Below the pieces are notes generated by a model. That model did no database searches and had not been told where the DNA came from. It saw only the letters and a program-made list of their open reading frames with translations. A program made the position numbers and the translations under genes. A DNA stretch of 64,000 bases from Verrucomicrobiota bacterium. Lineage in GTDB: Bacteria; Verrucomicrobiota; Verrucomicrobiia; Chthoniobacterales; UBA10450. Below, piece after piece: positions 56,749 to 60,266 of this stretch (the stretch's first letter is position 1; each line of letters starts with the position of its first letter). Where the stretch lies: positions 1 through 64,000 of the forward strand of contig QHOS01000024.1 in the NCBI GenBank assembly GCA_003219415.1. Direction: 5' to 3'.

Positions 56749-57333
56749 CTACAGCAAGCGTCGATGTGCAACCTGAAATTCAGCGTTATTACTGCCTTCA
56801 CTAAGTGCCGTATTGGGATTCGTGGTAAAGGGCTTTGGATGTCTGTCTGTCGCGCCTTGGGACGCAAGACGCGATCGGGTTCGAGATTGACCCGAAGGGC
56901 GTGTCCTCCTTCCCAGAAAGATGTGGATCAGCAGTAAGATCGGCAAAACCAGGCCGATAGCGAGATGAATCCAACTCGTCCACGCACGCAATCTTTCGCC
57001 GCCCGCGTAATAAAGGCCGTAGCCGGTGATGGTCAAAACAGCGAACGCACTCAGAAACACCGAGCCGTTTGCGCGGTTACGGCCCGCGCGCCATGCGAAT
57101 CTCACATGGCCATTCAACAGCATGCCGATCAATACCAGAATCGCCATCGCGGCCGCGCCATGGATCTTCATCGCCCAGCTTTTCGCGCTTGTTTCAAAAT
57201 CGCCCGGCGACACAGCCAGATAGTTCCAATATGTCCACGCGACGCCGCTGAAAAAAAGCAGCGCTACCACGGCGTAGAGAAAATATCTCTGCAAGTGCTT
57301 CAATCGAATCGAGTCTGGTCGCGGGTGTCGCAT
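56749..57333 (-). CDS. Four-helix b-type cytochrome-like membrane protein
   Basis: A 194-residue protein with four membrane helices (YFLYAVVALLFFSGVAW, IHGAAAMAILVLIGMLLNGH, VFLSAFAVLTITGYGLYYAGG, WIHLAIGLVLPILLLIHIFLG). Two histidine pairs, one in helix 2 (IHG...NGH) and one in helix 4 (WIH...LIH), are placed as in b-heme proteins. It resembles DUF4405/cytochrome b561-like families; exact family is not certain. The start overlaps the ApbE end by 34 bp. Its C-terminal tail of about 50 residues is soluble. Confidence 0.75.
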   Translation of the reverse strand: MRHPRPDSIRLKHLQRYFLYAVVALLFFSGVAWTYWNYLAVSPGDFETSAKSWAMKIHGAAAMAILVLIGMLLNGHVRFAWRAGRNRANGSVFLSAFAVLTITGYGLYYAGGERLRAWTSWIHLAIGLVLPILLLIHIFLGRRTRPSGQSRTRSRLASQGATDRHPKPFTTNPNTALSEGSNNAEFQVAHRRLL

Positions 57334-58196
57334 GGCGAGTGAAACATCCAGGATGGCGTACCATTGCGCTCAAGCAACAGCGCGTCTGCACGATACTGCG
57401 CCAGCAAGCCCGCGGCTTTTCCACGCAGCGTAAAAACAAGTTTGGTCAGTGCGTCCGCTATCATGCATTCGGCAGCCGCGACGGTCACGCTGATTAGTTC
57501 GCAGGCAGATTGACCAGTATGTCCGTCGAGTATTGGGCCCACATACTTGCCGCGATATTTTCGACGCTCGAAATAGACTCCCGAGGTCGCCATGGCACGC
57601 TCGCGCAGGCGCACCGCCCCGGCAATGCGTGTCGGCTCGGCGGGATGACGCACATAAACAACCTCCGAAGCCGATCCAAATGTTCGCAGATCACCGCCGG
57701 CGTTTACGATTCCGGCCGTGACAGAATTATTTTTCAACGCTGCAACAGCGCGATCAACCGCAAAGCCCTTAGCAATGCCTCCCAGATCAACGATCAGCCG
57801 GCGGCGGAATCGAACGTTGTATTCATCGTCGAGAACGATGTCGCGCCAGCTCCCGCCACTACAAAGCCGCGTGTCAGGTCTCGGAAGATAATCCCATTTC
57901 ACGAGTTGCCGGGCCATTGTGATGTCGAAAACGCCATCGCTTTTACGTGAAAATTCCTGTGCGGATTTCAAAACGCGCCATGTCCATGGATGAACTTTGA
58001 CCGGGCGGCGCGAAGCGTGGCAATTCATTCGGGCCACATCGCTGGTAGGATCGTGAAAACTCATCAGCCGCTGCACTTTTTCCATCGCGGTGAAGGCGCA
58101 ATCTATATCGCGAGGCGATCCCTGGCATGCAATCTCCACAAGCGTGCCGAGTAATGGGCGGCAGCGACGAATTTCAATGCCTGAGTGCGATCTCAT
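57300..58196 (-). CDS. apbE: FAD:protein FMN transferase
   Basis: A 298-residue ApbE. It attaches FMN from FAD to a threonine in a target. RCRPLLGTLVEIACQGS, FDITMARQLVKWD, IVDLGGIAKGFAVDRAVAAL and IVNAGGDLRTFG are conserved, with GPILDGHTGQSA for the substrate side. Members of the family are usually exported lipoproteins; no lipobox is seen here, and no clear signal peptide. It overlaps the FMN-binding protein gene by 23 bp, its probable target. Confidence 0.9.
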   Translation of the reverse strand: MRSHSGIEIRRCRPLLGTLVEIACQGSPRDIDCAFTAMEKVQRLMSFHDPTSDVARMNCHASRRPVKVHPWTWRVLKSAQEFSRKSDGVFDITMARQLVKWDYLPRPDTRLCSGGSWRDIVLDDEYNVRFRRRLIVDLGGIAKGFAVDRAVAALKNNSVTAGIVNAGGDLRTFGSASEVVYVRHPAEPTRIAGAVRLRERAMATSGVYFERRKYRGKYVGPILDGHTGQSACELISVTVAAAECMIADALTKLVFTLRGKAAGLLAQYRADALLLERNGTPSWMFHSPCDTRDQTRFD

Positions 58197-58701
58197 AAAC
58201 TGCCAGAAGGCGTTTCACGCCGTCGGTGATGTGCCGGCAACTCAAAGTTGCTCCACTGATGTTCTTGACATCGCTATCGAGTTTAAGCGTGGATTTGCTG
58301 GTCTTTCCCACAAATTGGGCTCGCCATTTTTGATCGCGAATCTGGCCTCCATAAGTCTCGCGATAATCCATGATTTCAATCTGCTTGACCGAACCGTCGA
58401 GATTGAGTCCGGCCGCATAAGTGATGAATTCATGTTTGCCGACAACTTCATCGACGATAAACCAACCACCGCCACTGACGCGCCAGACCTGCTGCTCGTC
58501 ATGCAAGACGCGGACGCCGCTGGCCTGCTCAATGGCTTTGCGTTGAACGCTCGTCAGCTTTACCGGCGCCGCCGTGAATGATTTGCCGGGAAAAATCGCC
58601 TGCTGCGCTTGATCGACGGTGAGGTATCGAACGGCAAACGCGGATGGTGCGATCAGCGCGGAAACAGGCAGCGCGATGAATGCGAACTCCGATTTCATCA
58701 C
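58174..58701 (-). CDS. FMN-binding domain protein (RnfG/NqrC-like target)
   Basis: A 175-residue exported protein (MMKSEFAFIALPVSALIAPSAFA signal peptide) with an FMN-binding domain. The flavinylation motif is SGATLS (ISGATLSCRHI) near residue 152, where the Thr would carry covalent FMN added by the neighbouring ApbE. AVRYLTVDQAQQAIFPG and GGWFIVDEVVGKHEFITYAAGLNLDG fit the domain. It likely passes electrons to or from the membrane cytochrome. Confidence 0.88.
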   Translation of the reverse strand: MMKSEFAFIALPVSALIAPSAFAVRYLTVDQAQQAIFPGKSFTAAPVKLTSVQRKAIEQASGVRVLHDEQQVWRVSGGGWFIVDEVVGKHEFITYAAGLNLDGSVKQIEIMDYRETYGGQIRDQKWRAQFVGKTSKSTLKLDSDVKNISGATLSCRHITDGVKRLLAVYEIALRH

Positions 58702-58704
58702 GCG

Positions 58705-59616
58705 CTAGAAGTTAATTCCCATTCTGAAGCGCACGTAGTATTTTTCATGCTCGTCGCCAAAGATGTAGCCGTCGTGCGCGGCAAACTCCTTGTTATCGTG
58801 ACTAAACGCCTGTCCGATTGGTAACTGATGAAGGAATCCAAGGGTGGCCCACCAGCGTTCGCCGCCATAATGAATCGTCGGTCCCAAAAAGTAGGCTGAA
58901 TGCTCGTGAACCGTGGCATCGGCAAATTCGTGATGATTCCAAAATTCCAAACCTGCTGACCAATTGCGCACGAAGCGGTAAGAAAGTCCGGTGAACCATT
59001 CGAACTTGCCGTCCCGCTCGTAGCCGCCACCGTCCTCCTTTTCGAATTCGAGTTCGTAATTGACGTTTAACGCCCAAACAAGCCGGTCTTCGAGCCAGTT
59101 CTTTTGCAGCAGAATTTTCCATTCCAATTCCGTTTCCTGATCACCCACCGATGGTTCGAAATAAAGCGCGAGACCGAGCGGATCCTTGTAGGGACTCAAG
59201 AGCCGATAAATTCCTTCCAGAGAGACCGACTCAAAATGATAACTGTCGAACACCGTCGCCGGATTGTGTCCGGCGTGTACATCTTCACCGCCGGTTACGT
59301 AAGCGCCGCGCAAACGATTGCCAGGATGCGCTGGATCTTCAGCCGGAACATCATCATTCGCGTGGACATAATGATGGTTGAGATAGATCGCGAGCTGGAA
59401 ATTATCCGTCACGCCATATTCGAACTCCTCACGAAAATCGATAACGCTATAGCTACCATGCTCCTTTTCCCAACGAGTGGTAATCCATTGTTCACATTCG
59501 CCATGACCTTTCGGAGTCAGGTCAGTCGTGTAAGTCCACGAAAAGATCGCTTCGTGCCCGTGCGACGTGGAAACAGCAACCAAAAGAGCAGCGACAAAAG
59601 TTAATCCGAATTTCAT
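58705..59616 (-). CDS. Outer-membrane-like beta-rich protein, unknown
   Basis: A 303-residue exported protein with signal peptide MKFGLTFVAALLVAVSTSHG. The mature sequence is a chain of alternating amphipathic strands ending in phenylalanine (RFRMGINF), as in outer-membrane beta barrels. YGVTDNFQLAIYLNHHYVHAN and GPTIHYGGERWWATLGF are examples. It is rich in His and aromatic residues. I do not assign a family number. ATG 59616 gives the signal peptide. It ends 3 bp before the FMN-binding gene begins, so it heads the redox cluster. Confidence 0.72.
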   Translation of the reverse strand: MKFGLTFVAALLVAVSTSHGHEAIFSWTYTTDLTPKGHGECEQWITTRWEKEHGSYSVIDFREEFEYGVTDNFQLAIYLNHHYVHANDDVPAEDPAHPGNRLRGAYVTGGEDVHAGHNPATVFDSYHFESVSLEGIYRLLSPYKDPLGLALYFEPSVGDQETELEWKILLQKNWLEDRLVWALNVNYELEFEKEDGGGYERDGKFEWFTGLSYRFVRNWSAGLEFWNHHEFADATVHEHSAYFLGPTIHYGGERWWATLGFLHQLPIGQAFSHDNKEFAAHDGYIFGDEHEKYYVRFRMGINF

Positions 59617-59678: not shown

Positions 59679-59697
59679 TGAATTGCAGCGCAATTCA
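59679..59697. terminator. Hairpin after adenosyltransferase gene
   Basis: TGAATTGC-agc-GCAATTCA is a perfect 8-bp stem located 24 bp downstream of the adenosyltransferase stop (59721), on its minus-strand exit side. On that strand CAGCGTCAAAAATT follows, with no strong T-run, so termination is inferred. Confidence 0.4.
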
Positions 59698-59720: not shown

Positions 59721-60266
59721 CTAATGGGAATTCCGCGAGTCTTTCTCGACGTACCTCGCCAGGATCCACAAGAGATCCGAAAGGCGATTTAGGTAGCGCA
59801 AAATCTCGATGTTAAACTCCGAGTCACTGGTGCTCAAACCGGCGATGTGCCGCTCGGCGCGGCGGCACGTTACGCGAGCAAAATCAAGAGCGGCAGACAT
59901 CAATGTTGCCCCGGGAATCACCCAGTCCTTCGGATAAAGCGAATCGTCTTTCTCGAGACCGACAATCACGGCGGTGACCCGGTCGACCATCGCTGCTGTG
60001 GTAAGTTGAAAACCATCTTTGACGAAACGCTCCCGATCCTTTTGCGCCGTTGCCAGTTCTCCCATGAGAACGATTAAGTCTTTTTGTACGGCGAGAATTT
60101 CTTCTGAAATAAATTTGTCAGTCGAAACGGACCTAGCCAAGCCTAGGGCTGCAGTCAGTTCATCGACACAGCCATACGCGTCGACGCGTGAATCACCCTT
60201 CGATACGCGATGGCCGTACATCAGAGACGTTTCGCCTTTATCGCCCGTTTTGGTGACGATCGACAT
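59721..60266 (-). CDS. Cob(I)alamin adenosyltransferase, PduO type
   Basis: A 181-residue enzyme that moves adenosyl from ATP to cob(I)alamin to make coenzyme B12. TKTGDKGETSLMYGHRVSKGDSRVDAYGCVDELTAALGLARS is the N-terminal signature, and FARVTCRRAERHIAGL carries the active-site Arg/His set. Length normal. It implies a B12-dependent enzyme elsewhere. Alone between rpoC and the redox cluster, on the same strand. Confidence 0.93.
   Translation of the reverse strand: MSIVTKTGDKGETSLMYGHRVSKGDSRVDAYGCVDELTAALGLARSVSTDKFISEEILAVQKDLIVLMGELATAQKDRERFVKDGFQLTTAAMVDRVTAVIVGLEKDDSLYPKDWVIPGATLMSAALDFARVTCRRAERHIAGLSTSDSEFNIEILRYLNRLSDLLWILARYVEKDSRNSH

Follow-up and report, generated by a model that had tools for sequence, protein, structure and literature searches.

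A four-gene operon in the genome of a soil verrucomicrobium appears to encode a flavin-based reductase of the cell envelope, most likely one for ferric iron or ferric chelates; for this reading as a whole we would put the chances at about even. Distantly related bacteria carry the set too, in many cases next to genes for iron uptake, and it is therefore probably a flavin-based reductase that has gone undescribed. The parts of the proposal differ in strength. The four genes are a real and conserved unit, and as a unit they are probably new to the literature. A mechanism in which heme and flavin carry electrons through the envelope is likely, iron as its substrate is moderately likely, and outward electron transfer across the outer membrane is unlikely. 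Such a system would give flavin-based electron transfer in the envelope a component in the outer membrane, and abundant soil bacteria possibly a reductive route to iron.

The window analyzed here is a stretch of 64,000 nucleotides (contig QHOS01000024.1, positions 1 to 64,000, assembly GCA_003219415.1). The operon runs on its minus strand from 59616 to 56749, and its features are as follows.

59679..59697, no strand assigned: palindrome TGAATTGC-GCT-GCAATTCA, candidate operator upstream of A (arms co-vary in relatives).
58705..59616, minus strand: gene A, DUF6662 protein with a signal peptide, predicted 12-stranded outer-membrane beta-barrel (PF20367, AlphaFold, Foldseek).
58174..58698, minus strand: gene B, exported FMN-binding protein with an RnfG-like FMN_bind domain and SGAT (PF04205, profile match to RnfG).
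57300..58196, minus strand: gene C, ApbE (FAD:protein FMN transferase) of a group without a signal peptide, with the motif ADALTK (PF02424, N termini, motif alignment).
56749..57333, minus strand: gene D, four-helix inner-membrane b-type cytochrome candidate (PF01292, conserved histidines, model).

The earlier note on this DNA had described four genes with overlaps or near-zero gaps, and the open reading frames bear this out: A (303 amino acids) and B are separated by 3 to 6 nucleotides, B having an alternative GTG start at 58701, while B and C overlap by 23 nucleotides and C and D by 34. On one side lies a cobalamin adenosyltransferase gene (59721-60266, following rpoC) and on the other rpsB-tsf. 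This setting is kept in close relatives (L015 to L021), and in other lineages the unit sits in unrelated places. The organism is close to "Ca. Udaeobacter": the closest matches to B, at 95% identity, come from Verrucomicrobia metagenome-assembled genomes (MAGs) and one "Ca. Udaeobacter" MAG. Measured against two clean relatives (L015 and L019), dN/dS is below 0.4 for all four genes; a comparison of A with L021 was left out. Conservation and purifying selection together rule out chance or an annotation artefact as the origin of the cluster.

How constant is the arrangement? The earlier note had called for a gene-neighborhood survey and had named an unconserved cluster, or an outer-membrane gene unlinked in relatives, as findings that would count against it. 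The survey, seeded with B, finds the cluster conserved and the outer-membrane gene linked: across 31 loci A lies directly upstream of B in every one, D follows in 30, and 26 include C. A local apbE is missing from, among others, the loci of Cycloclasticus, Methylophaga, and UBA652 (L039, L043 to L045) and from L031. An independent sample seeded with DUF6662 gave the family in 11 of 399 Pseudomonadota genomes, ten of which have A-B-C-D; the eleventh, that of the seed Cycloclasticus, has A-B-D with PepSY_TM. The order A-B-C-D extends over Verrucomicrobiota and Pseudomonadota and also occurs in MAGs labelled Omnitrophota and Chlamydiae, dozens of genomes in all. Within the family of the window genome, B is carried by 12 of 83 genomes, so the operon is accessory and patchy.

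Protein distances correlate at 0.78 to 0.90 across the four genes, and those of A with the other three at 0.78 to 0.81. These figures bear on the proposal that A is a porin with no part in the system, in the operon by coincidence, B-C-D alone being the redox unit. Lone DUF6662 genes do exist (L073 and L080 to L084), the family is sometimes solitary among the eight DUF6662 carriers, the window genome included, found in 195 Verrucomicrobiota genomes (G065, G149, G176, and G167), and B-C-D can stand with other porins. Against this are the distance correlations of A, its place directly before B in all 31 B-seeded loci, and the fact that another barrel fills the slot before B when A is missing, and we rank this the least likely of all the alternatives. 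Second DUF6662 copies occur in tandem at two loci, in split pieces at L017:5145-5994 and intact at L031:4075-5939.

Gene A was left without an identity in the earlier note, and a family can now be assigned: it belongs to Pfam DUF6662 (PF20367; 8.9e-19, 68.5 bits against a cut-off of 27), on which a literature search found no paper. It has no significant sequence relatives in the PDB. Its AlphaFold model (pLDDT 84.5, pTM 0.81) has about 12 long strands, and the top Foldseek matches, FapF, a COG4313 channel, and NanC, are all outer-membrane channels. A is therefore predicted to be an outer-membrane barrel. The DUF3570 family is itself flavinylated, and the same was considered for DUF6662; it is ruled out here, as the sequence of A has no [ST]GA[ST] motif.

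The second and fourth genes supply the putative redox centers. The earlier note's reading of B as a signal-peptide FMN-binding protein with SGAT holds. B matches FMN_bind (PF04205) at 3.9e-11, above the cut-off, and RnfG structures in a profile search (8e-10). SGAT occupies residues 149 to 152, with Gly150-Ala151-Thr152 invariant in 34 aligned sequences. In L040, L041, L042, and L071 the sequence of the signal peptide points to the twin-arginine type. As read from its sequence, the protein consists of one FMN domain with neither a lipid anchor nor a heme motif. An FMN_bind domain with the [S/T]GA[S/T] motif, and an ApbE gene beside it in 26 of the 31 loci, would together place the operon among ApbE-dependent flavinylation systems.

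D had been noted as a four-helix membrane protein with paired histidines, and its model agrees, with four membrane helices (pLDDT 82.9), His58 and His76 in helix 2, and His123 and His137 in helix 4. An alignment of 29 sequences keeps all four invariant or almost so, and a second one, of 27, shows no exception. The match to prokaryotic cytochrome b561 (PF01292, 3e-7) is marginal, at 30.8 bits against a cut-off of 30.1, and several homologues fall under that cut-off; for DUF4405, D itself scores below the Pfam threshold (18.1 against 26.7 bits). The PDB holds no significant sequence relatives, and the top Foldseek match, a hydrogenase cytochrome b, is weak (E = 0.14). Going by the positive-inside rule, His58 and His123 would face the periplasm and His76 and His137 the cytoplasm, an orientation in which two hemes would span the membrane.

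In the scheme we favor, D would receive electrons on the cytoplasmic face of the membrane, with quinol as the probable donor because the operon encodes no NAD-binding partner. The electrons would cross D by way of the inner heme (His76/His137) and the outer heme (His58/His123) and pass to an FMN held covalently on Thr152 of periplasmic B, where it would have been attached by C. This FMN would then reduce a substrate admitted or held by barrel A. We infer the heme and FMN contents, the donor, the direction of flow, the substrate, and the role of iron in the lineage of the window. The earlier note had imagined an electron path between the inner membrane and the outer membrane or periplasm. As a prediction, a path from the inner membrane to the periplasm or outer membrane is well supported by gene linkage, the invariant heme-type histidines, the flavinylation motif, and the barrel fold. 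A crossing of the outer membrane is unsupported, because A and B lack CxxCH and A lacks a flavinylation motif.

The operon might still be pictured as an outer-membrane conduit in which A holds B and electrons exit to extracellular acceptors, a flavin counterpart of the porin-cytochrome conduits. The barrel fold predicted for A would suit this, as would the fact that, whichever barrel family is present, its gene always comes before that of the flavoprotein. Yet B offers a single FMN domain and lacks a heme motif, [ST]GA[ST] is absent from A, the operon encodes no further extracellular redox protein, and a one-domain flavoprotein without a lipid anchor would be unlikely to span a barrel; we judge the conduit quite unlikely. 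The MtrCAB-type conduits themselves are similar in that a barrel gene adjoins a periplasmic redox gene, but here there is no multiheme cytochrome, and flavin takes the place of hemes: no CxxCH occurs in A, B, or D, and the operon contains no cytochrome c gene.

The third gene presents a puzzle. The earlier note had called it ApbE, rightly (PF02424, 1.5e-51), but it departs from the canonical exported lipoprotein form in both its N-terminal signal or lipobox and its Ser-His-Asp triad. The PLLGT core motif begins no more than about 20 residues after the start codon, and inspection by eye of the 38 loci listed found no hydrophobic leader; the longer N termini in L040 and L041 are probably start-codon artefacts. 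Relative to the triad of Vibrio ApbE (Vc Ser241, His257, and Asp285; PMC12052999), Asp248 and Ser205 of C are invariant in the alignment, while the catalytic histidine position is a proline in the window. That histidine is missing from most relatives and retained in some. Lys252, within ADALTK, is shared by all 22 cassette ApbEs in the alignment and by those of 17 out of 19 additional loci. By contrast, the ApbE of L125, beside a Porin_O_P cassette, has a twin-arginine signal, HHILDP, and ADGWST. How, then, could C modify B? Since C has no signal peptide and, in the window, no catalytic histidine, flavinylation of the exported B is not straightforward. Flavinylation before export, followed by passage through Tat, would fit a few loci and leave the Sec-like majority unexplained. 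Exported flavoproteins are held to receive their flavin outside the cytosol, a view that a signal-less ApbE with an altered site would call into question.

What might the system reduce? The earlier note had suggested metals or quinones, and the neighbors and operators in relatives favor iron, quinones being less favored. In a MAG labelled Chlamydiae (G198, locus L029), fur lies directly before A with the palindrome TGAGACTCTGTCTCA between them, and elsewhere in the genome an exact TGAGACNNNGTCTCA occurs just once, after a second fur gene and ahead of another predicted outer-membrane gene. In three Opitutia loci, similar palindromes precede A, two of the loci having exact tandem copies at a spacing of 30 bp; at the same stringency those genomes, which have Fur, hold no other copy. 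The gene hemP precedes A in six loci (five Bradyrhizobium and L024), hemP together with FTR1 does so in L032, and L043 and L044 have PepSY_TM and a TonB receptor after A-B-D. Upstream of the cassettes, Fur-box scores are higher than before the other genes of those loci (DUF6662 cassettes, p = 4.5e-5; Porin_O_P cassettes, p = 2e-4; related loci counted as independent).

The window genome itself looks different. No FUR-family gene was matched by profile in this 96.5% complete genome (G000), in a search that was positive in 13 of 14 control genomes, nor in four close relatives. A profile search for FeoB likewise gave no match, and there is no Escherichia coli-type Fur box upstream of A in the window. 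With neither Fur nor FeoB found, the iron role there is deduced from relatives only. It is accordingly possible, and an alternative that we take seriously, that the electron path is as described and the substrate something else, such as another metal like Cu(II), a protein partner, or an acceptor that is organic or resembles a quinone, with the iron link being secondary in some lineages. Most verrucomicrobial loci have no iron gene adjoining the cassette, a Methylocystis plasmid carries a related cassette next to multicopper oxidase genes, and an Ideonella plasmid has a di-heme peroxidase, NicO, and a two-component system nearby. Iron nevertheless keeps the lead, in that fur, hemP, FTR1, TonB/PepSY, and Fur boxes appear independently in several unrelated lineages and no other metal recurs as often. 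The same evidence bears on the direction of flow. Nothing in the sequence fixes it, and PMC8238504 notes that reversal is possible, so that periplasmic Fe(II) or another donor might be oxidized to feed the quinone pool. Fur-type control and hemP or FTR1 neighbors fit the scavenging of scarce iron and not the oxidation of abundant iron, which makes inward flow very unlikely.

The palindrome before A in the window (TGAATTGCGCTGCAATTCA) differs from the fur-linked palindromes of relatives. Its arms change together in L017 and L020 (TGGATTGC...GCAATCCA). GRATTGCNNNGCAATYC occurs once in the window genome and is found in L015, L017, and L020, being absent from L019 and L022. Its uniqueness rules out a genome-wide repeat, and, by eye, no T-run follows it, which rules out an intrinsic terminator. 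In G198, the second fur is followed by the palindrome TGAGACACTGTCTCA and a 293-amino-acid outer-membrane-like gene without a Pfam family (L136:5441-6874), which may be a co-regulated outer-membrane component. Its kinship with DUF6662 is unsupported (hhalign probability, 34%), and a widened TGAGA palindrome pattern gave mostly sites inside genes in G198, which we took as noise.

How does the operon compare with known systems? The flavinylation surveys PMC8238504 and PMC11334425 cover NapH, MsrQ, PepSY, DsbD, NQR/RNF-like, and DUF4405 systems. A term search of their main texts found neither a porin or barrel nor a b561 partner; their supplements might list the cassette unnamed. Our literature searches for a porin with FMN-binding, ApbE, and b561 proteins, or for a porin with Fur and iron, found nothing. 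The nearest parallel is with the PepSY-like clusters (Meheust et al. 2021, PMC8238504; ferric reductases of the FoxB/VciB type), which that paper ties to iron reduction and which share a heme-b inner-membrane protein, ApbE, a flavinylated periplasmic protein, and an association with iron genes and Fur. There, however, the flavinylated partner is mostly DUF2271, the inner-membrane PepSY protein has three transmembrane helices, and, in the main text, no dedicated barrel is described and TonB receptors belong to some clusters only. The DUF4405/FezC cytochromes linked to ApbE (Huang et al. 2024, PMC11334425) are similarly small heme-b membrane proteins with conserved central histidines, but they have six helices in that account, whereas D has four, with histidine pairs on helices 2 and 4. 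B resembles RnfG/NqrC in domain, motif, and profile match, and differs in being a free exported protein with no Rnf or Nqr subunits nearby and a score under the NCBIfam rnfG cut-off. In the P19/FTR1 clusters of PMC8238504, an FMN_bind gene is linked to FTR1, which recalls L032, where FTR1 precedes DUF6662; those clusters are mostly Gram-positive, the passage on them describes no barrel or ApbE, and P19 was not seen at the loci here. Finally, the cytoplasmic ApbE of Klebsiella (reviewed in PMC12052999) lacks a signal peptide, as C does, but its substrate is a soluble cytoplasmic fumarate reductase, whereas B, the linked putative substrate of C, carries a signal peptide. Judged from sequence, the operon would best be filed as a variant of ApbE-dependent envelope electron transfer that works like a flavin-based ferric reductase and is not a member of the PepSY or DUF4405 groups.

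The cassette is also modular. Seeding Pseudomonadota with the B profile uncovered B-C-D after barrels other than DUF6662: an unclassified porin-like protein on Bradyrhizobium and Methylocystis plasmids (L088 and L090) and in L120, and a BBP2-like porin in Ideonella (L089) and L119. Remoter FMN_bind genes have Porin_O_P upstream and PepSY_TM downstream, with D instead in two cases. What stays constant is the order barrel, flavoprotein, (ApbE), heme-b membrane protein; the barrel and cytochrome families vary independently. We suggest, tentatively and with some doubt, that these cassettes form a general unnamed class of three-compartment flavin reductases, in which a barrel would be the dedicated partner of a flavoprotein and a heme-b protein, the families would be swappable within a fixed order, and a cytosolic ApbE with an altered site (often with no catalytic histidine and with the lysine of ADALTK) would flavinylate its substrate before export. 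DUF6662 and several porins so far without a purpose are given a testable role by the operon. On the Ideonella dechloratans plasmid (L089:1173-10750), the porin-FMN_bind-ApbE-D cassette lies near a TonB receptor, a NicO metal transporter, a two-component system, and a di-heme peroxidase. Small Rieske-domain proteins adjoin the cassette in gammaproteobacterial loci (L045:8160-8588 and L071:6841-7233), with homologues in L039 and L043.
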